Source: Bdellovibrio sp.
Lineage (GTDB): Bacteria; Bdellovibrionota; Bdellovibrionia; Bdellovibrionales; Bdellovibrionaceae
DNA length: 13,255 bases
Assembly: GCA_019104905.1 (NCBI GenBank)
Contig: JAHRXB010000116.1
Coordinates: forward strand, 1-13,255
Reading direction: 5' to 3'
Shown here one piece after another: positions 1,277 through 13,255 of this stretch (positions are counted from its first letter, which is position 1; each line of letters opens with the position of its first letter). Under the pieces are notes generated by a model, which was given only the letters and a program-made list of their open reading frames with translations, searched no databases and was not told the DNA's origin. Position numbers and translations under genes: made by a program.

Positions 1277-3415
1277 TTAAAGATCAGGTCCTGGAGAGTC
1301 TTTATATGAATGGCTCGAAGATTTTAGGGTTAAATGTTGAACTAGAATTTCCAGGATCTCACTTTTCTTCACCGGCTTTACCGCGTAAGAGTTGCAGCCA
1401 CTGGCAAGAGCCCGTTGAAGATCTTCCACGACAGCCGTGGCAGTGAGGGCGATGATCGGGATCGGAGTCAGGTTTTTTTCTTTCTCCCAAAAACGAATCA
1501 GCTCCGTGGCTTTATAGCCCGTCATGATGGGCATTTGCATATCCATAAAAATCAGGTCGTACTTGTTCTTTCTAAATTTATCGACCGCCTCTTCTCCGTT
1601 TTTAGCCTCGTCGCAATCAAAGGGCAGGTTTTTTAGGTAGTGAATCATCAGAACGCGATTGTCCTCTGAATCGTCGACCAGCAGAAGGTTAAAACGGCGA
1701 TGCGGGAAGAGGTCGGCCCAGGAGGTCTCGACAGAGGCCTTTCTTTCGATTCGCGGGTTTAGATCGGGACGATGCGGAAGATAGATTCGAAAGGTGGTTC
1801 CTCGTCCTGCAAGACTTTTGACATCCATACTGCCACCCATGATCTCGACCAGATTTTTTGAAATGACCAAACCCAAACCTGTGCCGCCATATTTTCGAGT
1901 GATTCCAGGGTCTGCCTGAAAGAAAGGGGAGAACAAGCCTGATTGTTTTTCTCGAGGAATTCCAATCCCGGTGTCTTGCACCTCGATCATTAGCTTTTCT
2001 CCTCGTTCTTGTACAATTTTGACTGTGACTTGAACGACTCCCTCGTCGGTGAACTTCAAAGCATTTCCGATAAGATTAAAAAGAACCTGACGAACGCGAG
2101 TGGGATCTCCCCATTGGTATTTGGGGACTTCTCGACTGATATTCAGTATGAAGTTCAATCCCTTTTCTTCGGCTTTGATCTGCAGAATTTCAAACACGCT
2201 GCGGATGGTGGAGTGTAAATCATAACTGGTATTTTCTACCGTCAAAGCCTTGGCTTCAATTTTCGAAAAGTCCAGGAGATCATTGATCAATGCTTTTAGA
2301 TTTTCTCCGGCATGACTGAAAAGCGTGAGATAGCGTTCTTGATCCTTTGATAGTTGAGTTTCTTTTAAAAGCTCTAACATTCCTAACACCGAATTTAGCG
2401 GTGTGCGAATCTCATGACTCATCCTCGCTAAAAACTCTGATTTTGCCAAAGAGGCCTCTTCCGCTTGTTCTTTGGCGGTTTTCAATTCTCGTTCTGTTTC
2501 TCGGATGGTGACGAGTTTTCCGGTCAAAGAGGTGACTGCAGATCCGGTCACCAGAGAACAAAAACACAGCGTCAGCAGTGTTGCGGGGGTGTGGATCAAG
2601 ACGGGATCGTTTGCCCAGGGAAGACCCAACAACTTAGGAAGGATCACAGTGATAGCCATGATCCAGGTATTGATTAAGAGTGCGGCATAAAGTCCATACC
2701 AGGCCGAGGATATCAAGATAAGTATTCCATAGACATACCAAGTTTGAGAAAGAGGAAGGGAGATCCCCAATACCAGGCTTCCTGCCAAGATCGCCACCCA
2801 AAGAAATTTTTCTTTTCGAGGAACCCGATCTAAGCGTAAAGGGGGCAAAGAGTTATTGGGGAAGTAAGACAGGCCTGATCTATACAGAACGGGAGTCACA
2901 AGAATAAGAAGAGACAAACAAATAAGAACGGCCCCCGTAAGATCTCCTATGATTGTCACCAAAGAAAACCATAGAAGTTGAGACTTGTCGGTTACACCAG
3001 TTAAGACAAAGAGTGTTTGAATGGCGATGGAACTCACAAGGGACGGAATCAGAAGGCCATAGACAAAGAAAAGACTGATGTTTTTGGGGTTCGGCCTCCA
3101 ACAAGTCATAAGCTTAAAGCGTTCGCGGACCAGCATCCAGGCAAAGAAGACCTCCAGGGTTTCAGGAACCGCATAAATCGGATAGAGGAGGGGATTGGGA
3201 AGACCTAAGAGGGGGGCTGCGAAAAGTGCATTGAGATAGACCGCGATCAGAACCCGTGGGCCCCACCAAAGACTCATGGCAATGGCAATATTGACGGGAA
3301 AGTAGATCCAATAGATGCCTTGAGCGACCACGAACTGGCGGCTAGCCAGAGTGGCGAGAATCAATACAAGGAATGGGACGACCCAGGTCCACCAAGGCAG
3401 GCGCTTTGTGTTCAT
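1277..3415 (-). CDS. MASE1-domain hybrid sensor histidine kinase with receiver domain
   Basis: Complete 712-residue inner-membrane hybrid sensor kinase. Residues 1-300 are a MASE1-like integral membrane sensor with about eight to ten hydrophobic segments (the IYFPVNIAIAMSLWWGPR region is typical). A short charged coiled-coil linker (about 300-325) leads to HisKA with the phospho-acceptor H334 in SHEIRTPLN. The HATPase_c domain has the N box around N447 and N451, the G1 box DTGIGIP at 481-487 and the G2 box GTGLGL at 511-516. A C-terminal receiver (about 575-695) has acidic D581/D582, phospho-acceptor D625 in MDMQMP, T658 and K680. All catalytic residues are present, so the protein should autophosphorylate and pass phosphate to its own receiver. 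There is no output or Hpt domain, so a separate Hpt protein or response regulator elsewhere is needed. The ATG start is followed directly by the first membrane segment; no clear ribosome site is visible. It lies 54 bases after the protease gene and may be cotranscribed with it. The signal sensed is unknown. Confidence 0.95.
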   Translation of the reverse strand: MNTKRLPWWTWVVPFLVLILATLASRQFVVAQGIYWIYFPVNIAIAMSLWWGPRVLIAVYLNALFAAPLLGLPNPLLYPIYAVPETLEVFFAWMLVRERFKLMTCWRPNPKNISLFFVYGLLIPSLVSSIAIQTLFVLTGVTDKSQLLWFSLVTIIGDLTGAVLICLSLLILVTPVLYRSGLSYFPNNSLPPLRLDRVPRKEKFLWVAILAGSLVLGISLPLSQTWYVYGILILISSAWYGLYAALLINTWIMAITVILPKLLGLPWANDPVLIHTPATLLTLCFCSLVTGSAVTSLTGKLVTIRETERELKTAKEQAEEASLAKSEFLARMSHEIRTPLNSVLGMLELLKETQLSKDQERYLTLFSHAGENLKALINDLLDFSKIEAKALTVENTSYDLHSTIRSVFEILQIKAEEKGLNFILNISREVPKYQWGDPTRVRQVLFNLIGNALKFTDEGVVQVTVKIVQERGEKLMIEVQDTGIGIPREKQSGLFSPFFQADPGITRKYGGTGLGLVISKNLVEIMGGSMDVKSLAGRGTTFRIYLPHRPDLNPRIERKASVETSWADLFPHRRFNLLLVDDSEDNRVLMIHYLKNLPFDCDEAKNGEEAVDKFRKNKYDLIFMDMQMPIMTGYKATELIRFWEKEKNLTPIPIIALTATAVVEDLQRALASGCNSYAVKPVKKSEILEILVQHLTLKSSSHSYKDSPGPDL

Positions 3416-3469: not shown

Positions 3470-4351
3470 TTAAAGGTCAATGTTTGAAGTTTTAAAGAAC
3501 CTTTCTCCAAAGCAGGTCCCATTTTTACAGCGATGAAAGTTAATACAGCCACCTTCGGATTGAACCCGATAGATGTCATCTTCCAAAAAATCTTCCATGC
3601 CACTACTCAAGATGCCAAGGAGCTCGCCCTTGCCATTAAAAAGCGGAGAGCCCGAACTTCCCATAAAGGTGTCAACTTCCACTTTGAGAGTGTAGGATCC
3701 GTCCGCGCTTTCAAGGACTTTGCCGATATCTTGTTTCAGAGGCAGTCCCATCGGATAAGAAAGGCTTAAAACCAAATCACCGCGTTTATGAAGTGCGTCC
3801 TTGGCGATACTGACAGGTTGTATTCCCTTCGCGGGGCGATCCAATTCAATGATAGCATAGTCGATGCCTTTGCTGCGGTTATTCTCTTGGCGTAAAATAT
3901 TTTTGCAGTGAAAGACCTCAGAGTTTGCGAGGGTTTTGTGTTGAGATCTTTCTAGATCCCAGCCAAAGATAAACTTTGTATTTTTACAGATGTCTTTTTC
4001 GGCGACACAATGCCCGGCGGTCAGAATTTTATCGGGGGCAACTAAAACGCCAGAACAAAATCCCAAGACGGGTTGCTTTAAGAACTTCTCATCAGCACAA
4101 AGGGGATAGCTTTTTTCTAGAGGCCGTGTTCCCAAAGACCATGTGGTGTCGGCGTTTTGAGAGATAAGTCGCCCCTCGACAAGAGTGACGGTGGCTTGTG
4201 CTAGAGATGACACGGAACTGGTTTTTTCGACCTCCTGGCGTGTGTCCTCATGGTAGATCACAGCCGAAGTTTGAGAGAGATCGACCTCGGGGGCGAGAGG
4301 AGCGCAGGCTATCAAAACAAAGGGTAGAAGAAGAAGAAGAATGTAATTCAT
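3470..4351 (-). CDS. Trypsin/V8-like serine protease, predicted lipoprotein
   Basis: Predicted secreted endopeptidase of 293 residues in the trypsin-like fold (MEROPS clan PA). The N terminus is a leucine-rich signal ending in a lipobox (LIAC) with C16 as the likely lipidated residue, so it is probably anchored to a membrane facing the periplasm or the outside. The triad is visible: H114 in LTAGHC, D164 in GIDYAIIEL and S233 in GSSGSPL. The serine motif has Ser where trypsin has the second Gly of GDSGGP, as in several V8-like bacterial enzymes. Several further cysteines (C85, C99, C115, C122, C149, C269, C275, C280) suggest disulfides. No PDZ domain follows, so it is not an HtrA/Deg protein. 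The ATG lies one base after the stop of the upstream gene, strongly suggesting translational coupling. The Leu run of the signal peptide is encoded by a GAA/TTC triplet repeat. Substrate unknown. Confidence 0.9.
   Translation of the reverse strand: MNYILLLLLPFVLIACAPLAPEVDLSQTSAVIYHEDTRQEVEKTSSVSSLAQATVTLVEGRLISQNADTTWSLGTRPLEKSYPLCADEKFLKQPVLGFCSGVLVAPDKILTAGHCVAEKDICKNTKFIFGWDLERSQHKTLANSEVFHCKNILRQENNRSKGIDYAIIELDRPAKGIQPVSIAKDALHKRGDLVLSLSYPMGLPLKQDIGKVLESADGSYTLKVEVDTFMGSSGSPLFNGKGELLGILSSGMEDFLEDDIYRVQSEGGCINFHRCKNGTCFGERFFKTSNIDL
4327..4341. repeat. GAA/TTC triplet repeat in the protease signal peptide
   Basis: Five tandem GAA units (TTC on the coding strand) encode the leucine run of the lipoprotein signal peptide. 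Gain or loss of a unit would change the number of leucines without shifting frame, so any effect would be on export efficiency only. Confidence 0.6.
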
Positions 4352-4948: not shown

Positions 4949-5896
4949 CTAGAAAAACATTTTTACGGATAGCTTTCCGTAATAAGCGTTCCCAATATCC
5001 ACGGGCGCCTCTGGATTCGTCGTATAGTTCTCAGAAATAAAGAAGGATCGATCAAAGGCATGGCCGGCCTCGATCTCTGCAAAAATATTTCTAGACAACG
5101 GAGTCTTTAGCCCTAGAAAAATCTTCTTTTCGTCGTAAAAAAGACGATCTTTTTCATTTTGGCGGCCATACAAATAGTAAGTGACCTGCGAGAAGTCAAT
5201 TCCACTGTAAACTCGCGCATATTCATTGAGTTTATAGCTGAGAGAGCTTTTAAGAATCCAAGGAACTAAAGCAAAAAGATCCAAGACCCATTTTTCGCTG
5301 AAATTCCAGTTGATGGAAGCAAAGGGGGCTCCGAACACCGCGCGGAATTCTTTAGAGGGATAATAGAAATAAGCAAATCCCGGCAGTGGGATATTATTAA
5401 GAATAGGGCGGTTGTTTGAATAGTCCACCAAAAGCAACCAGCGGCTGGTTTCGTCACTAGGAAACGAATAGAATGCAGTCATTCCCAAAGTCGTGACATT
5501 GGCTGCTTCAAAGGGTTTATCGCTGGCTGAACCATAGCGGGCAGAGACGGACCACAAACGTTGTTCATCCAAAGCTTTGGTGTATCCCAAGCCTAACTTA
5601 AGATCATAGAGCTCAGAAAAATTGTTCTGCGCAGGGCGAACTGAGAACTGCGTTCCGCTCAGAGAAACCGTGACGGAATCGACCTCCGACTTGTAGACCG
5701 GAATCGAAAAATCGGCGGTTTGATAGGAGGTCGAAGCCCGCTCTTGAGGGAAATCTGACTTGTCATGAAATAGGCCTGAATAATTGATAAGAATTTTTTG
5801 CTGTTTCGGAGGAGTTAAGCCCGCAGCAAGTTCAAAAGCATTAGTGGTCAGTGGAAGCCAAAGGCTGAAAACAAAAAAGAAACCGACTTTATTCAT
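4949..5896 (-). CDS. Predicted outer-membrane beta-barrel protein (unknown function)
   Basis: A 315-residue protein with a clear signal peptide (cleavage likely after TNA, residue 20). The mature protein has many amphipathic beta-strand stretches of alternating hydrophobic and polar residues, rich in aromatic residues and separated by short turns (for example DLKLGLGYTKALD and RLWSVSARYGSAS). It ends in YGKLSVKMFF, whose terminal phenylalanine fits the BAM recognition signal of outer-membrane barrels. I recognise no named family with certainty; DUF6268-type barrels are a possibility. The start follows the small zinc-ribbon gene by 28 bases, a gap that contains a short inverted repeat, so cotranscription is plausible. 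Substrate or role cannot be read from the sequence. Confidence 0.8.
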   Translation of the reverse strand: MNKVGFFFVFSLWLPLTTNAFELAAGLTPPKQQKILINYSGLFHDKSDFPQERASTSYQTADFSIPVYKSEVDSVTVSLSGTQFSVRPAQNNFSELYDLKLGLGYTKALDEQRLWSVSARYGSASDKPFEAANVTTLGMTAFYSFPSDETSRWLLLVDYSNNRPILNNIPLPGFAYFYYPSKEFRAVFGAPFASINWNFSEKWVLDLFALVPWILKSSLSYKLNEYARVYSGIDFSQVTYYLYGRQNEKDRLFYDEKKIFLGLKTPLSRNIFAEIEAGHAFDRSFFISENYTTNPEAPVDIGNAYYGKLSVKMFF

Positions 5897-5924: not shown

Positions 5925-6317
5925 TTACACAACTTCTTTTCGTTCCATGCGTACCACTCGTGCGCAGTTTTGACAAATTTCTGACAGGGGCCATTGCAGT
6001 TCGGTGGACTTAATTTTTACTGGATACTGGCAATGAGGGCAGACAGTTTCTCCGCCTAAGACTTTGCCCTCAGCTTTATAGCTTCGAAAGGCGAAGAATA
6101 ATCCAAGAAAGAAAAACAGGGGCACAGTCACAAAGTGAAAGACCGGGATAAGAATGGATAAAATGGCGATCCCCCAGAAAAGGCCCAGCTTCTTTAGCGC
6201 TTGAAGAACTCGATCCGATGGCGAAAAGTCTTGGACATAAACAAAGCCCTCACTGCGACGTTCGTCGTTGACGTTTCCCACGATCAGAACTTTTCTTCCG
6301 TTATGAGTGTTATCCAT
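5925..6317 (-). CDS. Small membrane protein with C-terminal zinc ribbon
   Basis: A 130-residue protein from the ATG at 6317. A TTG one codon earlier is rejected because the ATG has a G-rich site (GGGGGAT) about ten bases upstream. Residues 1-40 are polar and probably cytoplasmic. Residues about 44-78 form two closely spaced hydrophobic helices with a tight turn. The C-terminal tail carries C93-x2-C96 (CPHC) and C115-x2-C118 (CQNC), a four-cysteine zinc-ribbon arrangement, followed by a basic end. The short loop between the helices suggests both termini lie in the cytoplasm. I do not recognise the family. It follows wecB by 49 bases on the same strand, and a link to polysaccharide synthesis is possible but rests only on position. 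Confidence 0.8.
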   Translation of the reverse strand: MDNTHNGRKVLIVGNVNDERRSEGFVYVQDFSPSDRVLQALKKLGLFWGIAILSILIPVFHFVTVPLFFFLGLFFAFRSYKAEGKVLGGETVCPHCQYPVKIKSTELQWPLSEICQNCARVVRMERKEVV

Positions 6318-6366
6318 CAAAGCAATCCCCCAGCTAAATTAGATTGGGTCCCATGATGGCTTAATG

Positions 6367-7530
6367 TCAAAGTCTTTCCGCCATAATATTTAAAATCCTC
6401 TCGCAGGCTTTCCCGTCGCCAAACGGATTTTTAGCTTGAGACATCCGGCGATAGATCTCGGGATTATCTAAGACTTCAGCCGCCGTAGCTACGAAGGTCT
6501 TTTCTTCCAGAGGAATAAGCTTTGAGGTGCCCGCGGCAATGGCCTCGGGGCGCTCGGTTTTTTCCCGCGCGACAAGAATGGGTTTTCCCAGCGATGGGGC
6601 CTCCTCTTGCACGCCACCAGAATCCGTGATGATAAGATGAGCTCGATTCATCAGATAAACGAAGGGAACATAGTCGACAGGCTCACAAAGCCAGATGCGA
6701 CTTTGCCCCATGTGCGCAGGATGACCTTTGTCGATCCATTGGGCGTGGGCACCGAAGATCTTTTCTGCGGAGGCCCGCACCTGGGGATTCATATGCAGAG
6801 GAATTAGAAGTTCAACATCTTCCCTTTGAGATAAAGAGACCAATCCTTTCATGACTTCTTCCATGGGGGTTCCGAAAGATTCGCGACGATGAACTGTGAC
6901 TAAAATGAACTTCTTTTTAGGATTAAGAAAAGAATAGGTTTTATCCAGCGAGGCTCTGAGTTCAGGGGAATCCGCTAACTTCTTTATGACCGTGAAGAGC
7001 GCGTCGATCCCGGTATTGCCGGTAACATAGATATCTTCATCGGGATAGTGTTCGCGGAGAAGATTCTCGCGTGAGGGTTCGGTGGGCGAAAAGTGCAAAG
7101 AGGCCACAAGCCCCGTGGCCTTGCGATTGAATTCCTCCGGGTAAGGGGAGTAGATGTCTCCAGAGCGCAACCCCGCTTCGACATGCATGACCGGCACCTT
7201 ATGATAAAAAGCAATCAGACTTGCAATAAAACAACTCGTTGTATCTCCCTGCACCACAACGGCATCCATCTTGTGAGTGTTCAAGATGTCATGAAGTCCT
7301 CTCATAACGCCAATAGAAATGTCTGCCAGTGATTGTCCTGGTTTCATCAAATCCAAATCAAAATCCGGAGTGATGTCGAAAAAGTTTAAGAGAGGCTTAA
7401 GCATTTCGCGATGTTGTCCTGTAGAGCAAACATAGGTGCGAAAGCGGCGATCGCTTTTTGCTTGAAGAATAAAAGGGGCAAGTTTGATGGCTTCAGGTCT
7501 CGTTCCGAATACAACAACTATGTTTTTCAT
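6367..7530 (-). CDS. wecB: UDP-N-acetylglucosamine 2-epimerase (non-hydrolysing)
   Basis: A cytoplasmic 387-residue enzyme of normal family length that interconverts UDP-GlcNAc and UDP-ManNAc. The fold is the two-domain GT-B-like epimerase fold. Family motifs are intact: GTRPEAIKLAP at 9-19 with K16, VQGDTTS at 93-99 with D96, VEAGLRS at 117-123 with E118, PEEFNRK at 131-137 with E132, and HRRES with H214. These match the catalytic and binding residues known for E. coli WecB (K15, D95, E117, E131, H213). The C-terminal nucleotide-binding segment TDSGGVQEE...GKPILV...TERPEA is also complete. No wecC (UDP-ManNAc dehydrogenase) gene is adjacent, so the product may be used as ManNAc rather than ManNAcA. 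The gene is transcribed divergently from the NfrB-like operon 117 bases away; UDP-ManNAc is thought to be the donor in the E. coli NfrB pathway, so a shared role is likely. No strong ribosome site is seen. Confidence 0.96.
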   Translation of the reverse strand: MKNIVVVFGTRPEAIKLAPFILQAKSDRRFRTYVCSTGQHREMLKPLLNFFDITPDFDLDLMKPGQSLADISIGVMRGLHDILNTHKMDAVVVQGDTTSCFIASLIAFYHKVPVMHVEAGLRSGDIYSPYPEEFNRKATGLVASLHFSPTEPSRENLLREHYPDEDIYVTGNTGIDALFTVIKKLADSPELRASLDKTYSFLNPKKKFILVTVHRRESFGTPMEEVMKGLVSLSQREDVELLIPLHMNPQVRASAEKIFGAHAQWIDKGHPAHMGQSRIWLCEPVDYVPFVYLMNRAHLIITDSGGVQEEAPSLGKPILVAREKTERPEAIAAGTSKLIPLEEKTFVATAAEVLDNPEIYRRMSQAKNPFGDGKACERILNIMAERL

Positions 7531-7647
7531 GCGTCGTAAACTATGGCGGGGAATTATTCTTTGGCAACTTTATTATTGTTACATCAGTTTAATTACTATT
7601 CTCAAAGGTCCTCGATTAGCGTTGATTCAACTTTTTGTGGGTGAATT
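7531..7647. promoter_or_regulatory. Divergent intergenic region between wecB and the exopolysaccharide operon
   Basis: This 117-base gap must hold the start signals for wecB leftward and the barrel-nfrB-deacetylase operon rightward. The centre (about 7567-7600) is AT-rich. A perfect palindrome GTTGA-T-TCAAC lies at 7621-7631, 16 bases before the operon start, and could be an operator. A leftward TTGCCA (7567-7562) and CATAGT (7545-7540) pair with a 16-base spacer is weak and would leave almost no leader. No convincing sigma-70 pair was found rightward. Confidence 0.45.
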
Positions 7648-8427
7648 ATGAAAATCTCATCGAGATGTGTTTTGTACGTTGTAGGTCTTATTGTCTTGAT
7701 GACGTCTTTGTCTCAAGCTTCCGAAGCTGAAGAGGCGATGTCTTACAAGTTGGTAAAAAAGTTTCGGCAAGAACTTTATTCGGAAAGTACTTACTACCAA
7801 AAATATGACGTCGTCACAGAAAGTCGACTGCGCTCTTACATTTCCATTTGGCAAGATGAACACTGGGAGCTTCGTCCTTATTTGGGAATCTCACTTCAGT
7901 ATCAGACGCCCGGCGCTCAAAATAAGTATTTTGATAACACACTCCATCCCGCTTTAGGTGTGCAGATGACTTATCTGCGAAAAATATCTCTTTCTTTGCA
8001 AGGGGGAGTGCGAACGAACCTGTCGCAAACAGAAAAACAAAGCGAGTGGGACCCTCGCGCCGTTCTGAGCTTCGGCGACTTCTGGTCGTGGGTGCCCGTG
8101 AAGCTCCCGGGCGTATTCACGGAGATCTATGCCGAAAGTGCTTATCTGCCTCGGCTTTCAAGCACTCCAGTTTCAACTCTGTGGTTGAAACAAGGATATC
8201 GCATGAACCTTACGTCGCATCTTTATTTGGATCCCTATGTCGAACTCTTTTTGCGTGAAAGTCGCTCTGCAGATCTGGGACCTTCTTTGACCCAAGGGCG
8301 AGGTGGCGCGCGCCTTTTGTGGGTCAATGATTCATGGAGTGTGGCCGGACTTATCTATCACAATTTTAGACAAGATGAATCTTCCGCCTCAACGGAAGGT
8401 CTTTTGGTGGTTGGGGGGAATTTCTAA
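7648..8427 (+). CDS. NfrA C-terminal-like outer-membrane barrel, putative exopolysaccharide exporter
   Basis: A 259-residue protein with a signal peptide (cut likely after SQA, residue 24). The rest is a series of amphipathic beta strands in the style of a small outer-membrane barrel: LRPYLGISLQYQTPG, ISLSLQGGVRTNLS, TSHLYLDPYVELFLRES, GGARLLWVNDSWSVAGLIYH, ending in VVGGNF with terminal Phe. The arrangement resembles the C-terminal barrel domain of E. coli NfrA (Pfam NfrA_C), but the protein lacks the roughly 700-residue TPR region that precedes it in E. coli. It is the first gene of the operon, and its TAA stop overlaps the ATG of the NfrB-like gene (TAATG), so it very likely forms the outer-membrane exit for that enzyme's product. 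The NfrA link rests on pattern and context and needs a profile search. Confidence is high for a secreted barrel, moderate for the family. Confidence 0.75.
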   Translation: MKISSRCVLYVVGLIVLMTSLSQASEAEEAMSYKLVKKFRQELYSESTYYQKYDVVTESRLRSYISIWQDEHWELRPYLGISLQYQTPGAQNKYFDNTLHPALGVQMTYLRKISLSLQGGVRTNLSQTEKQSEWDPRAVLSFGDFWSWVPVKLPGVFTEIYAESAYLPRLSSTPVSTLWLKQGYRMNLTSHLYLDPYVELFLRESRSADLGPSLTQGRGGARLLWVNDSWSVAGLIYHNFRQDESSASTEGLLVVGGNF

Positions 8428-9824
8428 TGAACATCGCGGGCATTGAATTCGAACAACTCTTTGTGAATTTGGTTTACGCCGTTGTCACGGTGACGTTTGT
8501 TTTTACGTTGGATGATTTGTTTATTGATTTGGTGGCCTTGGTCCGTCGCCTAAAACCTCGTCGGATCAGCCTCAAAGAATTGATGGGGATGACGGAAACT
8601 CGTCAGAAGAACATCGCCATTATGATTGCTAACTGGAAGGAAGCAGAAGTGATTGCCCCGATGATTCGCGGGAATATTCGCGGCATCAAGTACGAGAACT
8701 ATACTTTCTTTTTGGGTGTTTATCCCAACGACACAGAGACCTGGAGAGAGGCAAAAAGACTGGAAGAGCTGTTCCCGCAGCGAGTGATGGTGGTGGTTAA
8801 TTCCATGCAGGGGCCGACGTCCAAGGGGCAAATGCTTAACGAGATGGCGCGAAGAATTTTGGAATCCGAAGTCGTTTCGGGGATTCAGTATGATCTGTTT
8901 TTAATGCAAGACTCTGAAGATGTGCTTCACCCGTACTCGTTGACACTTTTAAATCAGTTCAGCAGTCAGTCCGAGTTTATTCAAATTCCGGTTTTTTCAT
9001 TTGATGTGCCCAAGCGGTCTTTGGTTGCGGGGGTTTATATTGACGAGTTCAGTGAATCGCATACGAAAGACCTGCTGGTTCGGCAAGAGCTGGGGGCGGC
9101 AATTCCCTCGGCCGGAGTCGGAACTTTGTTATCCAGAGAACTCATGCTCAGTGCGATGCTTTTGCAAGGGGGACATTTTCTTAAAGAAGACACGCTAACA
9201 GAAGACTATCACTTAGGGATCATGACCAAAATTATGGGTTTCCGAAGTCAATTTCTTTGTGTGCAAATCGAGATGCCTCGGGGAAGTAAAGAGTTTATCG
9301 CGACTCGGGAGTATTTCCCTTCGGATTTCTTTGCAAGCATTCGTCAAAAATCACGTTGGACCCTGGGGATTGCGTATCAAGGTTTAGATAACATTCAATG
9401 GCAAGGAAGTTGGGTGGATCGCTATTTTCTTTTGCGCGATCGCAAAGGACCGCTCAACAGTGCTCTTGTAATTTTATCGGTGATAGTGCTTTTGGGTCTT
9501 GCGGGGTTTAGGCTTTTTTCTGGTCGAGTCCCCGAAATGTTGGACAACCCTGTCTTCGACACTCTTATTGTCTTAAATGCGGTGAATATGTTGTTAAGAG
9601 TGTTTCAGCGGATGTGGGCCGTGCGCAGGGTGAACGGTTGGACTCAGGCTTTGATGGTTCCGGTGCGATGGCTTGTTGCGAATGTTGTGAACGTTGCGGC
9701 CACGATAAAAGCCCATCGAACTTATCGACACAGTTTAAAAACCGGGCAGAAGCCTGCCTGGGTAAAAACAGATCATCGGCTTCCGGCCCATTTTGGTAAG
9801 GAAGTGGAGGTACAAACACAATGA
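8427..9824 (+). CDS. nfrB: NfrB-like processive family 2 glycosyltransferase, without c-di-GMP-binding domain
   Basis: A 465-residue inner-membrane glycan synthase. An N-terminal membrane segment (about 12-36) is followed by DDLFIDLVALVRR, matching DDFFIDVVYWVRR of E. coli NfrB. The cytoplasmic GT-A domain holds PGPTSKAD-like QGPTSKGQ (128-135), DSED at 162-165 (donor and metal site), YIDEFSESH, PSAGVGTLLSR, TEDYHLG with D260 (catalytic-base motif) and QKSRW at 307-311 (the QxxRW motif of processive synthases). Hydrophobic helices follow at about 345-366, 378-396 and 407-425. It ends soon after WVKTDHRLP, the point (W.KTTHDFP in E. coli) where the E. coli protein continues for roughly 290 residues into the MshEN region. 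A strong ribosome site (GGGGGGAA) precedes the ATG, which overlaps the barrel stop; its own TGA overlaps the next start (ATGA). It probably polymerises an aminosugar and threads it into the periplasm. Confidence 0.92.
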   Translation: MNIAGIEFEQLFVNLVYAVVTVTFVFTLDDLFIDLVALVRRLKPRRISLKELMGMTETRQKNIAIMIANWKEAEVIAPMIRGNIRGIKYENYTFFLGVYPNDTETWREAKRLEELFPQRVMVVVNSMQGPTSKGQMLNEMARRILESEVVSGIQYDLFLMQDSEDVLHPYSLTLLNQFSSQSEFIQIPVFSFDVPKRSLVAGVYIDEFSESHTKDLLVRQELGAAIPSAGVGTLLSRELMLSAMLLQGGHFLKEDTLTEDYHLGIMTKIMGFRSQFLCVQIEMPRGSKEFIATREYFPSDFFASIRQKSRWTLGIAYQGLDNIQWQGSWVDRYFLLRDRKGPLNSALVILSVIVLLGLAGFRLFSGRVPEMLDNPVFDTLIVLNAVNMLLRVFQRMWAVRRVNGWTQALMVPVRWLVANVVNVAATIKAHRTYRHSLKTGQKPAWVKTDHRLPAHFGKEVEVQTQ

Positions 9825-11635
9825 GAATCAAGGATGTTTCCATTGCTATAGGAACGATGGCCACTTTATCATTGGCCGCGATTTTAGGATTTACCAATCA
9901 TCAGGAAATCCAGTGCGTTAATATCTACTATGATAAAACGGACAAACCAGATTATTGGATGGGAAAAAGTTATTCCGTCATGTTGCAAAATCTTTTGGGG
10001 CACTTCCCAGAATATCAACAGATAGTAACTCCCATTGAGTCCTATCAAGTCGGAGGGCTGGATAAGTGCCAGGCTAATATTTATATTGGTTCATACTTTG
10101 ATAATAAAATTCCCAGGGCTTTTTTGGAAGACTATCTAAAAACCCAAAAGAATGTCGCATGGCTAGGATATAACATCTGGCAACTGGGCGATCAGCTCGA
10201 TAAAGAAATGGGCTTACGTTATGTGCGGCTCACGACTTTGGATAAACATCTTCTTGATAAAGAGAAGCAACCGACGTTCTTCAAAGAAATTCTTTATAAG
10301 GGAGAAACCTTCTACAAATTTGCAGAGTGGAGTCGCAAAGAGCCGGGGCACTTTATTGCTCCCTATGAGCAGACCGAATTAATGCCAACGGATCTTTCAA
10401 AATTTGAAACTTTGGCAGAGGCCCGGCATACGGGGACGAAAGAGGTGATTCCTTATATCGTCAGATCGAAGAATCGTTTTTTTGTTGCAGATGTTCCCTT
10501 TGCCTATATCCATGAAGCCGATCGGTATCTGGTTTTTGCCGACGTCCTTTTTGATATTCTCGGGGCTCAACCTCGTCATAACGGGAAATATGCTTTTGTC
10601 AGAATCGAAGATATTCATCCCGTGTCGAATCTGGGATTTCTTTATGGATTGATCAACGTTCTTAAAGAAGAAAAAGTGCCGATTAATATTTCCTTGATTC
10701 CGATTTTTTACGATCCTCTTTATCGTTATGGACGAGCGGAAAATGAAGAGTTCGTGCCCATGGAAAGAAAGAAGTCTTTTGTGACTTTTCTCAATGAGAT
10801 GAAAGCCTTGAATGCAAATTTCATCATGCACGGAATTACTCATCAGTATCAAAGTCACGTCAACCCTTTTAACGGGGCTTCTGGTGAAGATTTTGAATTT
10901 TGGGATGCCGTTCGAAATGCGCCTTTGCAGGAAGACAGTGTGAACTATGTTTTAAGTCGCTTTGATGATGGATGGCATTCAATGAACAAAGCCGGGGTGA
11001 CGACTCGCATGTGGTTGACACCCCATTATCAGGCCAGTCCTTTGGATTACATCATTTTTGGAAAAGTCTTTCCGTGGAATGTGGGACGAGTCATCTACTA
11101 TAACTTTAAGGCCAGTGGTTTGAATGAAACCCTTTTGCAAAAAGAAATTCGCTCTGGCGATGATCCCAGATTGCATTACGCCACGAACTCCGCCGATGGA
11201 AAGAGTTTGCGTGAAGAGTATTTTAAAGATCTTCATGTTGAATATTTAGCGGATAAGTGGAGTGGCCAGTTCTTCCCTTATGAGATCTTCGGGGATGTGC
11301 ATGGTCAGCGTTTGATTCCCGAATGTTTGGGAAATCCTCAGAACTATTTGACAGAACAGGTTCTAAGAACCAGATCCGCGAAGCAGATCATCGAAGACGC
11401 CAAACGCAATCGAGTGCTTCGTGATGCCTGGGCCTCGTTCTTTTTTCACACCTATCTTTTGGATATCCCAGCCAACGATGGTCGCGGTCACCAGCCGGGG
11501 GACCCTCGAGAAATTCGCTACCTTGTCCAAGAAATCAAAAAGCTTGGTTACACCTTTATCGACATAAATACGTTTTTGGATGCAAACACACGGACGATTC
11601 GTCCTGAACCGATCTATACGGAGGTAGGTCTATGA
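9821..11635 (+). CDS. DUF2334 polysaccharide deacetylase-like protein, membrane-anchored
   Basis: A 604-residue protein with an N-terminal hydrophobic segment (about 6-24) that would act as an inner-membrane anchor or uncleaved signal, placing the bulk in the periplasm. Residues about 30-245 form an alpha/beta N-terminal region. The segment from about 255 to 590 matches the DUF2334 family of putative polysaccharide deacetylases: VRIEDIHP at 260-267 (E263, D264, H266), HGITHQY at 337-343 (H337, H341 as likely metal ligands), WLTPHYQAS at 398-406 (H402) and FFHTYLLD at 541-548 (H543). All expected polar residues are present, so a metal-dependent N-deacetylase or related hydrolase acting on the NfrB product is the best inference; no deacetylase activity is proven for most of this family. 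The start has GGAGG ten bases upstream and overlaps the nfrB stop (ATGA); the stop overlaps the next ATG. It is fully embedded in the operon. Confidence 0.88.
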   Translation: MRIKDVSIAIGTMATLSLAAILGFTNHQEIQCVNIYYDKTDKPDYWMGKSYSVMLQNLLGHFPEYQQIVTPIESYQVGGLDKCQANIYIGSYFDNKIPRAFLEDYLKTQKNVAWLGYNIWQLGDQLDKEMGLRYVRLTTLDKHLLDKEKQPTFFKEILYKGETFYKFAEWSRKEPGHFIAPYEQTELMPTDLSKFETLAEARHTGTKEVIPYIVRSKNRFFVADVPFAYIHEADRYLVFADVLFDILGAQPRHNGKYAFVRIEDIHPVSNLGFLYGLINVLKEEKVPINISLIPIFYDPLYRYGRAENEEFVPMERKKSFVTFLNEMKALNANFIMHGITHQYQSHVNPFNGASGEDFEFWDAVRNAPLQEDSVNYVLSRFDDGWHSMNKAGVTTRMWLTPHYQASPLDYIIFGKVFPWNVGRVIYYNFKASGLNETLLQKEIRSGDDPRLHYATNSADGKSLREEYFKDLHVEYLADKWSGQFFPYEIFGDVHGQRLIPECLGNPQNYLTEQVLRTRSAKQIIEDAKRNRVLRDAWASFFFHTYLLDIPANDGRGHQPGDPREIRYLVQEIKKLGYTFIDINTFLDANTRTIRPEPIYTEVGL

Positions 11636-13255
11636 TGATTTTAAGAGCGTTCTTACTGGCATTGCTGCTGACTCCCGGGTTCTCCTGGGGGAACGAGGGG
11701 GGCTTACCGCCTGCAGACGAGTTGATGTTTAAAGCCTCTCAGGGGCGCATTGAGTTGCGCGAGGTCTTGATGGACCTTGAAAATAATATTCAGGAGATGG
11801 GATACCCGGAAGTTTTTGATTCCTATTTCTATTTGTTGGATGGTCTTAAGGAACTGGCAATTCGTTTTAATCTGGACGAGATCTATCCAGGGGCTGTGGA
11901 GAATCTCGGGGCACAGATGGTCGATAGTGGAATTCGCTGGTTGGATATTGCCGAGGCCAAAGAGGAACGTCTTCTTTATTATCATAAGTGGATGAACCTG
12001 GATGTAGCGGTTCGCTATATGGATCAGGTCGAGGTCGAGATCGGATCTCTTAAGAATATGGATAAAGTCCGTTCTGCCAGTGACAATGTCGAAATTCTTT
12101 TGAATTACGTCGAGACGCGGTTTCCTCGATATTATCATTTGAAAACGGGCTATCGTCGTATTTTATCCAATGTGGCTTTAAAGTTTTTACGTCAGCCGGA
12201 CATTTCGAATGAAGATGTGCAGCACTGGATCGGCAAACTGCGCAGTCCTGCTGGGTATATGGATTATATGATTCTTCTTTCCACTGAAATTTATTCTTTG
12301 AAAGAAGACACCAAAGGGGAGGCTCATGTCTATAGTGGCCGCCTCAAGGCGTTAGCGACAGTGGTGGCGCAAGATGGAATGGATATTCCTGTCGCGATCC
12401 CTAAAGGGATTGGTGAGATCAGTGAAGATTTGATTTTGCGTTTTATCCATTTAGAAGAGCCTTTCCAGGCCGAAGAGTTGCGAGGGCTGTTGGATCTTCT
12501 CAGTGTGGGTCAGTTGCATGATCTGACCACGCGATGGAACTCTTTTAAGAAACTTCCTTCAGACAAGTACATTCAAAGCTATTTTGAATCCTCTCGCGAG
12601 TTTGTCGGCAAACTTCGTGAAATTGGTATGGCGAAAGAAGTAGCTGATATCAACTCTTGGGTCGGAGCGATGGGCGCTCCCGCGATGGTTCGACTTTTAG
12701 GAATGGAAGGACGCTATTCTTTGAAGGATGCTCAAGGGGCGGCGTGGACGTTGATGATCGTCAAAGTTCGTGAGATGCAACTAGAGGCCTTGATGTGGAA
12801 AGAGGGCGATGAGTTTGGTAAACTCTATCAAACCATTCGCTGGGACTTTGAAAAAAGCACGTTTGTTGCTTCTGAACGCGTCCTGGATTTGACAGATTTT
12901 TCAGCCCCTTCTTTGGTCAAATTTAATGCGATCCCTGGGGGTATTGAGTTCTTTAATCCTTTCGCGAATCCAGACACTCAGAAGATGGCGGGCGTTATGA
13001 CGGAAGCCTACGAAGATCTAATGAAAGAAGCCACAGAATCTTTTGATTATGAAGGTTTCTATCATGGTGTTTTGAAGGATGCGGCGGGAAAAACAATTGC
13101 TGTGAATCTGACCGTGAGCTCTTTGGGAGGACACTACATGGGACGCATTATCGGGGAGGGTGTTGATCACTCCTTTGAAATGGGCTCTCAAGTAAACGGT
13201 GGCGCTCTATATCTGACAGCCTCTCGCGACGGCTCCTTGTCAGAGTTCTCTCACC
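11632..13255 (+). CDS. Large secreted protein of unknown family, 3' end missing
   Basis: An open frame runs from the ATG at 11632 to the right edge without a stop: 541 codons are visible. GGAGG at 11620-11624 is seven bases upstream, and the ATG overlaps the deacetylase stop (ATGA). A second ATG follows directly. The signal peptide (MMILRAFLLALLLTPGFSWG) is short and likely cut near residue 20. Residues about 25-470 look mainly alpha-helical, with many acidic, Leu-rich and aromatic helices, no clear TPR consensus and no cysteines in the visible part. From about 480 the pattern changes to glycine-punctuated beta strands (GFYHGVLKDAAGKTIAVNLT, HYMGRIIGEGVDH), suggesting a small beta domain that continues beyond the window. 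I recognise no family or catalytic motif. Its position as the fourth overlapping gene implies a periplasmic or outer-membrane role in glycan handling; it could stand in for the missing NfrA scaffold, which is inference only. Confidence 0.88.
   Translation, partial: MMILRAFLLALLLTPGFSWGNEGGLPPADELMFKASQGRIELREVLMDLENNIQEMGYPEVFDSYFYLLDGLKELAIRFNLDEIYPGAVENLGAQMVDSGIRWLDIAEAKEERLLYYHKWMNLDVAVRYMDQVEVEIGSLKNMDKVRSASDNVEILLNYVETRFPRYYHLKTGYRRILSNVALKFLRQPDISNEDVQHWIGKLRSPAGYMDYMILLSTEIYSLKEDTKGEAHVYSGRLKALATVVAQDGMDIPVAIPKGIGEISEDLILRFIHLEEPFQAEELRGLLDLLSVGQLHDLTTRWNSFKKLPSDKYIQSYFESSREFVGKLREIGMAKEVADINSWVGAMGAPAMVRLLGMEGRYSLKDAQGAAWTLMIVKVREMQLEALMWKEGDEFGKLYQTIRWDFEKSTFVASERVLDLTDFSAPSLVKFNAIPGGIEFFNPFANPDTQKMAGVMTEAYEDLMKEATESFDYEGFYHGVLKDAAGKTIAVNLTVSSLGGHYMGRIIGEGVDHSFEMGSQVNGGALYLTASRDGSLSEFSH

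Follow-up and report, generated by a model that had tools for sequence, protein, structure and literature searches.

Organisation of the locus

The window analysed here is a stretch of DNA of 13,255 nucleotides from Bdellovibrio, a predatory bacterium, and makes up an entire contig (G000:C119:1-13255). It carries a wecB gene that is divergent from an operon on the plus strand, with the following features:

6367-7530, minus strand: wecB, 387 aa (TIGR00236, PF02350, 1f6d alignment)
7531-7647, no strand: intergenic region of 117 bases from which wecB and the operon diverge
7648-8427, plus strand: outer-membrane barrel gene, 259 aa, with an N-terminal signal-like helix and 12 modelled strands
8427-9824, plus strand: NfrB-like GT2 synthase gene, 465 aa, a short form without the C-terminal MshEN region
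9821-11635, plus strand: DUF2334 protein gene, 604 aa, with two domains and an N-terminal signal-like stretch
11632-13255, plus strand: gene for SecP, a secreted protein, 541 aa visible with no stop, cut by the contig end

Successive operon genes overlap by 1, 4 and 4 bases in the open reading frame map, and the reading frames confirmed the layout given in the initial annotation, with wecB lying 117 bases from a plus-strand operon of overlapping genes. Since the window is the entire contig, the operon is incomplete at its end, where approximately 25 residues of SecP are lost together with anything that follows; the assembly itself (G000) is 88.24% complete. A scan of positions 7450-7750 for sigma-70-like promoters gave two weak matches, both on the wecB strand (shuffles gave 0.6 +/- 0.7), and no site on the operon strand.

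WecB and the NfrB-like synthase

The TIGR00236 profile (cut-off 210.15) identifies the wecB product as a non-hydrolysing UDP-GlcNAc 2-epimerase, with a score of 435.3 bits. The protein scores 355.8 bits with PF02350, and 74.9 with the NeuC model, under that model's cut-off of 235.9. In an alignment with E. coli WecB (1f6d), the protein retains one Asp, one His and two Glu, which we take to be the catalytic residues of that enzyme, and also the K15 region, in agreement with the earlier claim that the catalytic residues are all present. The window gene is the single TIGR00236 match in an assembly that is 88.24% complete. WecB would be expected to convert UDP-GlcNAc to UDP-ManNAc and so to supply the precursor.

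The synthase had been described as NfrB-like, and membership of the NfrB family is borne out by a phmmer match of 232.8 bits to E. coli NfrB, with no match to E. coli PgaC or BcsA. Its PF13641 score is 144.1 bits; Pfam at E up to 1 returned GT2 families only, and phmmer against the PDB returned nothing. Equivalents of D169, D267 and W330 (the Asp, TED and QxxRW residues) are present in the window synthase and in all 58 aligned rows, two outgroups included. These residues are also found in PgaC and BcsA and therefore indicate a working GT2 rather than a family. The initial annotation had named as contrary evidence a grouping of the NfrB-like homologues with another synthase family, and no such grouping was found; the synthase tree omitted the duplicates L062 and L065 (same genomes as L033 and L035) and E. 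coli BcsA, and rows over 520 aa were trimmed.

The NfrB profile NF008411 scores 317.9 bits on the window synthase, under its cut-off of 1170, and covers profile positions 12-474 of 723. With scores under the NCBIfam equivalog cut-offs, the protein is, on these sequence matches, a member of the NfrB family and not an equivalog. The C-terminal MshEN module is absent from its 465 residues, the match stopping at position 474 of 723. In E. coli NfrB this module is reported to be required, for activation by c-di-GMP. The window synthase would therefore not be subject to direct control by c-di-GMP as E. coli NfrB is and, as far as its domain content indicates, its regulation must differ from that of E. 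coli NfrB. We propose that this inner-membrane GT2 would polymerise UDP-ManNAc and hand the chain to the periplasm, the genomic link with wecB making UDP-ManNAc its putative donor.

The barrel, the DUF2334 protein and SecP

The barrel was modelled by AlphaFold2 with 12 strands (pLDDT 90.1), which upholds the small outer-membrane barrel noted initially; neither Pfam nor phmmer recognised an NfrA. Pfam, which presumably includes an NfrA_C model, gave no family at E up to 1, and phmmer gave no match to E. coli NfrA; together with the 12 strands, these results lead us to reject a reading of the barrel as a recognisable NfrA. Fold searches placed generic barrels among the best 50 matches of each list, and a barrel profile run against PDB sequences found nothing convincing. 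NfrA is described as N-terminal TPRs with a 16-strand barrel (PMC8669472). The same barrel family lies immediately upstream of nfrB in 29 of the 41 mapped Bdellovibrionota loci, a set that omits the nfrB places of G180, G169, G204, G273 and G092 and a second fragment in G206. As a candidate export pore, the barrel would release the chain through the outer membrane.

The next protein but one scores 120.8 bits with PF10096 (DUF2334; cut-off 26) and consists of an N-domain reaching to about residue 254 and a DUF2334 catalytic domain at 258-560. R261, E263, D264, H337, H341, P401, H402, R534, D535, W537 and H543 are invariant in 17 of 17 aligned DUF2334 proteins, as is a CE4-like Asp/HxxxH/His motif. 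An indirect link to CE4 comes from four proteins in which matches to Polysacc_deac_1 and to DUF2334, each over cut-off, overlap; an hhalign comparison with PgaB was weak (P 0.076), and no solved CE4 enzyme was matched in the PDB at E up to 1. A literature search found no paper linking DUF2334 with exopolysaccharide. We infer that the protein is a CE4-like polysaccharide deacetylase, which would strip some of the N-acetyl groups from the chain in the periplasm.

SecP is 99% identical to P0121, a protein of 566 aa, in a similarity search that scored only candidates sharing most words. It comprises an alpha-helical repeat domain (28-356) and a beta domain (360-566), and the AlphaFold2 model of P0121 has a pLDDT of 87.9. 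Generic solenoids were among the fold-search matches listed, and assignment of SecP as a TPR protein was unsupported; no fold supporting a scaffold role appeared among those matches. By analogy with the TPR scaffolds of the Pga, Pel and Alg systems, SecP is a candidate periplasmic scaffold whose helical repeats might hold the chain, the enzyme or both.

Co-occurrence and linkage across the Bdellovibrionota

We surveyed 290 Bdellovibrionota genomes drawn from a larger group. A WecB match (E up to 0.001; 168 of the 290 genomes) was present in 43 of 43 genomes with NfrB and in 125 of 247 without (P=5.5e-12, Fisher tests here treating genomes as independent, with kinship uncorrected). Counting only WecB over cut-off, the figures were 43/43 and 89/247, the cut-off status of G092 being inferred from its E-value. 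The wecB gene lies within 10 kb of nfrB in at least 28 of the 43, in several gene orders, and in six further genomes it adjoins genes for GH113, DUF2334 or both on contigs that lack nfrB. It was not seen linked in nine of the 43. G118, G077 and G013 each have a single wecB distant from nfrB; the single wecB of G142 is linked.

Many exopolysaccharide GT2 enzymes use UDP-GlcNAc. Given how common such donor use is, and the nine genomes in which linkage was not seen, wecB could be a general envelope-supply neighbour of an NfrB that makes a PNAG- or chitin-like product from UDP-GlcNAc. The presence of WecB in every NfrB genome, against about half of the others, makes this distinctly improbable, as does the fact that, of the three E. 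coli synthases compared, only NfrB matches. Furthermore, the search for UDP-ManNAc consumers covered two kinds besides NfrB: a WecG/TagA-type ManNAc transferase, found in 0/24 Bdellovibrio genomes (7/14 in the control), and an NDP-sugar dehydrogenase, over cut-off in 12/24. Both are absent from G000, G142, G177 and G211, which argues for ManNAc as the NfrB substrate.

The wecB-nfrB linkage pointed out in the initial annotation extends through much of the phylum, to Alphaproteobacteria and to one Terriglobia record, with the exception of the nine genomes above; outside the Bdellovibrionota 15 loci were collected and 12 counted, L042-L044 being omitted as their nfrB was missed by the ORF picker. 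Apart from those nine, the wide comparison did not show the loss of adjacency that had been named as contrary evidence. The linkage had also been put forward as independent support for ManNAc. The link is indeed conserved, but the idea is already in print: an nfrB-wecB link was reported after NfrB homologues from 406 species other than E. coli had been surveyed (PMC8669469). What is new is the co-occurrence of NfrB with WecB, DUF2334 and GH113 across the Bdellovibrionota.

DUF2334 was found in 35 of 43 genomes with NfrB and in 4 of 247 without, counting matches of at least 88 bits, a threshold set after viewing the score gap; four of the weaker, excluded matches were checked and are polysaccharide deacetylases. 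A GH113-type hydrolase, of a beta-mannanase family, showed a similar pattern (31/43 against 14/247). Eight of the 43 NfrB genomes have no strong DUF2334 match and 12 have no GH113, the window's assembly being among these 12.

Gene loss is also evident at the same chromosomal site in relatives, where the deacetylase domain, SecP, NfrB or wecB has gone. Nine short DUF2334 genes stop at the domain border, in L112 and L113 the N-domain and SecP persist but no intact NfrB adjoins them, and G092 has an NfrB remnant containing a stop. The short genes and the remnant would fit a decaying relic of which the window copy may be unused, but the window genes are all open to the contig end and keep their catalytic residues, and we regard decay as very improbable.

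A GH113-type hydrolase in relatives

By its own profile, the GH113-type gene lies within 15 of the 41 mapped Bdellovibrionota loci, in part of the relatives after SecP. Both catalytic Glu of these PF22612-type proteins are invariant in 13 of 13 aligned and line up with the Glu of the beta-1,4-mannanase 5ylh; the match to PDB mannanases is distant (51 bits). The relatives' enzymes thus have the family profile and both catalytic Glu in common with GH113 endo-beta-1,4-mannanases (5ylh and others), from which they are distant and differ in a substrate that is probably N-acetylated. GH113 gave no match in the E. coli control genome or in the window's assembly, which is 88.24% complete and whose contig stops inside SecP. 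A literature search found no paper joining GH113 with Bdellovibrio. In many relatives this hydrolase, which has a signal-like start, would trim the chain.

Independently of the WecB evidence, the hydrolase class points to a manno-configured beta linkage, and so does the inverting mechanism of a GT2 whose donor is an alpha-linked UDP-sugar. As a tentative proposal, the Bdellovibrionota NfrB product could be beta-1,4-linked poly-ManNAc, in effect an N-acetylated mannan, partly deacetylated by the DUF2334 enzyme and cut by dedicated GH113/GH26-type hydrolases, and NGR of E. coli might have this backbone too.

Other sugars have some room in the product, since an NAD-dependent epimerase gene lies just downstream in three scanned relatives' loci (L056, L112 and L113); a PMT_2-like glycosyltransferase gene lies downstream in L052. 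The product might then combine ManNAc with another sugar, or NfrB might do no more than attach ManNAc to a glycan linked to lipid or protein. This is unlikely, as these genes lie outside the recurrent core, which has one GT2 and whose deacetylase and pore, with the relatives' hydrolase, suit a processive synthase system.

Comparison with known polysaccharide systems

The genes, their families and catalytic residues, the barrel model, the gene linkage and the co-occurrence were observed directly; from them we infer the substrate, its linkage, deacetylation, the scaffold role and export. The gene set supports the arrangement for periplasmic modification and export suggested initially, and the locus probably makes, modifies and exports a polymer of N-acetylmannosamine, a pared-down relative of the surface sugar of E. 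coli that phage N4 uses. Judged from sequence, we consider it likely to be an NGR-like, synthase-dependent exopolysaccharide system for poly-ManNAc with its own deacetylase, to which relatives often add a hydrolase.

With E. coli NfrA/NfrB/WecB, which make the NGR receptor of phage N4, it shares the NfrB GT2 catalytic residues, WecB and a barrel gene beside the synthase gene. In contrast to that system, the window synthase has no MshEN, a separate 12-strand barrel replaces the 990-aa NfrA, a DUF2334 protein and a secreted solenoid are added, and wecB is adjacent. The chemical nature of NGR is described as unsettled in two 2021 papers (PMC8669469, PMC8669472), and among the papers since 2022 listed, none evidently determines it in its title or the start of its abstract.

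Achromobacter xylosoxidans has an nfrA-nfrB-wecB cluster (PMC8669472), and the nfr cluster of Simplicispira is reported to contain alginate-type acetyltransferase genes (PMC8669469). Both are grouped with polymer-modifying genes, as in the window, and that of Achromobacter with wecB too. Their modifying genes are reported to be for O-acetylation, with a BcsB homologue also in Achromobacter, whereas the window has the DUF2334 protein and loci of its relatives also carry GH113/GH26/GHL6-type hydrolases.

PgaABCD (PNAG) and Pel follow a shared logic of synthase, periplasmic deacetylase and hydrolase, helical-repeat scaffold and outer-membrane pore, as described in PMC12022489 and PMC9384988. By comparison, the synthase here belongs to another family, with no phmmer match to PgaC, the candidate scaffold and pore are separate proteins, the locus is linked to UDP-ManNAc supply, and the hydrolase of those relatives that have one is encoded by a GH113-type gene of its own.

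A literature search found no paper joining NfrB with Bdellovibrio, and matches listed for NfrB with glycoside hydrolase were off topic by their titles and abstract starts. The polymer-acting enzymes beside the synthase, namely the probable deacetylase and the mannanase-family hydrolase of many relatives, offer a means of identifying the product. The ManNAc hypothesis is directly testable by gene removal in those Bdellovibrio whose near-complete genomes lack the two other UDP-ManNAc-using enzyme types searched.

An NfrB-like synthase and WecB are encoded by the window

Every open reading frame proposed in the initial annotation was recovered at its claimed position. The window is one entire contig (C119) of an assembly that is 88.24% complete and in 317 contigs, and the closest named homologues among the candidates scored come from Bdellovibrio. 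The last reading frame, encoding the secreted protein SecP, runs past the contig end, and comparison with a protein that is 566 aa long and 99% identical to it indicates that approximately 25 residues are absent. WecB is a non-hydrolysing epimerase by profile (435.3 bits, cut-off 210.15), and it does have the catalytic residues ascribed to it: those of E. coli 1f6d that we take to be catalytic are kept in the alignment.

The synthase had been described as NfrB-like, and in phmmer it scores 232.8 bits against E. coli NfrB, with neither PgaC nor BcsA matched. It keeps the equivalents of D169, D267 and W330, which were mutated in NfrB (PMC8669469); the same three residues are also found in PgaC and BcsA. 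An IQ-TREE tree of 55 rows placed E. coli NfrB inside the Bdellovibrionota sequences (100/97), although its branch is long and the outgroup very distant, and the window nfrB as sister to nine Bdellovibrio copies (97/84). At 465 aa the synthase matches the NfrB profile only up to position 474 of 723, ahead of the c-di-GMP-binding MshEN part. Mapped NfrB homologues are at most 507 aa long, save E. coli NfrB and the 855 aa product of locus L088 (genome G146), which far exceeds in length every other NfrB mapped in the phylum. Since MshEN was counted in 1,705 of 1,841 NfrB homologues (PMC8669469), forms without it were already present in that survey.

wecB is linked to nfrB in variable gene orders

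We surveyed a draw of 290 Bdellovibrionota genomes, treated as independent in all P-values. NfrB was found in 43, one of which (G092) has a remnant with a stop, and 168 had a WecB match, 132 of them over the cut-off (control 11/14). All 43 genomes with NfrB had a WecB match, against 125 of the 247 without (P = 5.5e-12). At least 28 of the 43 have wecB within 10 kb of nfrB, and in six more genomes (G011, G034, G098, G160, G222, G273) wecB adjoins a GH113 (β-mannanase family) gene, a DUF2334 gene or both, on a contig that lacks nfrB. Gene order varies by clade, wecB being divergent, upstream and co-directional, or later in the operon, yet the link is kept. No link was seen in nine of the 43 (G118, G254, G162, G107, G013, G189, G064, G077, G092). 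For six of the nine, the surroundings of one wecB copy were inspected (L094-L097, L103, L105), and no further locus genes were found there. G118, G077 and G013 (78% complete) each have a single wecB match that is distant from nfrB, an exception to the published rule by which a genome's only wecB is found next to nfrB. Within the genus of the window, NfrB is present in 11 of 22 genomes of the draw (the window and the G092 remnant counted), and the system is therefore accessory there.

Outside the phylum, wecB follows nfrB in nine of 12 mapped loci (11 from Alphaproteobacteria and one from a Terriglobia MAG), in eight as the next gene on the map. An HlyD-like periplasmic adaptor gene lies beside the pair at all nine (L036, L037, L039, L041, L045, L047-L050) by our own profile, and Pfam confirmed it in two; a barrel gene of the Bdellovibrio kind was not recognised in the maps of these nine loci (Alphaproteobacteria and one Terriglobia).

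The module extends beyond the nfrB-wecB pair

The remaining genes of the module go beyond what has been published. Because several contigs end early, gene counts over the 41 mapped Bdellovibrionota loci, the window included, are lower bounds: the barrel gene is straight upstream of nfrB in at least 29, DUF2334 is full-length in at least 26 and short in at least six, wecB lies within 10 kb in at least 25, a GH113-type gene is present in at least 15 and SecP in at least 14. Genome-wide, DUF2334 (at least 88 bits) occurs in 35/43 genomes with NfrB versus 4/247 without (P = 6e-33), and GH113 in 31/43 versus 14/247 (P = 2.7e-21), with some copies away from the locus.

The DUF2334 protein gave no direct match to PDB sequences. 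Residues R261, E263, D264, H337, H341, P401, H402, R534, D535, W537 and H543 are invariant in 17/17 aligned proteins, and the order Asp, HxxxH, His resembles D530, H600, H604 and H761 of PelA (PMC12022489). DUF2334 is tied to the CE4 group by four deacetylases of the phylum in which a Polysacc_deac_1 match (60.1 to 85.4 bits) overlaps a DUF2334 match (30.4 to 31.5 bits, cut-off 26).

The GH113-type proteins match solved β-1,4-mannanases (5ylh, E = 9e-13), and in the alignment the two invariant residues E181 and E336 fall on the Glu of the 5ylh motifs 'CEMVQ' and 'VEAG'; 5yli, also listed as a mannanase, has Ala at the second site, as would be expected of a catalytic mutant. No GH113 match was found in the window's assembly (88.24% complete). 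Other clades have GH26-type (L069, L077) or GHL6-type (L053) genes.

The barrel model has 12 strands (pLDDT 90.1), and the matches listed in a fold search include the generic monomeric barrels BrkA, EspP, OmpG, VhGalP and KdgM, at TM < 0.5. NfrA has been described as a 16-strand barrel carrying TPRs (PMC8669472); at the window locus the helical repeats may reside on a separate protein, SecP, modelled (pLDDT 87.9) as an α-solenoid (28-356) followed by a β domain (360-566). SecP had no specific fold match among the matches listed; it may act as a scaffold, as the TPR region does in PgaA (PMC9384988). The SecP position is occupied in L067 (12586-14136) by a protein that weakly matches the transglutaminase-elicitor family (PF16683, 26.9 bits, cut-off 25), as is the position straight after nfrB in L075 (7947-9488; 26.8 bits). 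In L063 (12712-14562) and L064 (12664-14493), the place of SecP behind the DUF2334 gene is filled by proteins 610-617 aa long, for which no Pfam family exceeds its cut-off.

NfrB as a probable outlet for UDP-ManNAc

None of 24 Bdellovibrio genomes gave a match to a ManNAc transferase of the WecG/TagA type (control 7/14 named genomes). NDP-sugar dehydrogenase, the class needed for UDP-ManNAcA, was over cut-off in 12 of the 24 and in none of the window's assembly, G142, G177 and G211; the last three are 99-100% complete, and their nfrB loci include a DUF2334 gene of full length. G142 has two nfrB copies, and its single wecB match is linked to one of them. In these assemblies NfrB is the sole UDP-ManNAc outlet among the three kinds looked for. 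This supports ManNAc as the substrate better than linkage alone, although there may be other consumers, and the assembly of the window is not complete. We consider it fairly likely that the locus specifies an NGR-like poly-ManNAc system with a deacetylase and, in many kin, a hydrolase; our confidence is slightly lowered because no more than 15 of the 41 mapped loci include the hydrolase gene and because only two further kinds of UDP-ManNAc consumer were covered.

Pared-down loci in kin

In seven of the nine sister copies the DUF2334 gene is short, its end corresponding to window residues 233 to 256, and in the remaining two (L053, L055) the map shows none. The N-terminal domain of the DUF2334 protein is found with SecP beside the NfrB remnant of G092 (L112:7251-10515; domain ending at 262) and, with no NfrB, at a second site of G065 (L113:8482-10961; ending at 247). 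Intact NfrB, barrel and wecB are all missing beside the pair at both sites, and the next gene downstream on that strand encodes an NAD-dependent epimerase, not GH113. No traces of the DUF2334 catalytic part were detected by tblastn in the 11 loci examined. Since kin have a short or no DUF2334 gene and NfrB that is lost or a remnant, the locus, pared down in them, is retained in a fuller form in the window. The N-terminal domain and SecP persist together, which suggests that the two proteins interact by direct binding. Their retention without intact NfrB in L112 and L113 is also a hint of a unit of their own.

Other window genes are as follows:

1277-3415, minus strand: hybrid histidine kinase with MASE1 sensor and receiver domain, near the locus
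3470-4351, minus strand: trypsin-like protease
4949-5896, minus strand: marginal DUF6268 match (23.4 bits, cut-off 22.8)

The last of these, together with its small neighbour (5925-6320), is found again in L112 and L113, at the corresponding site.
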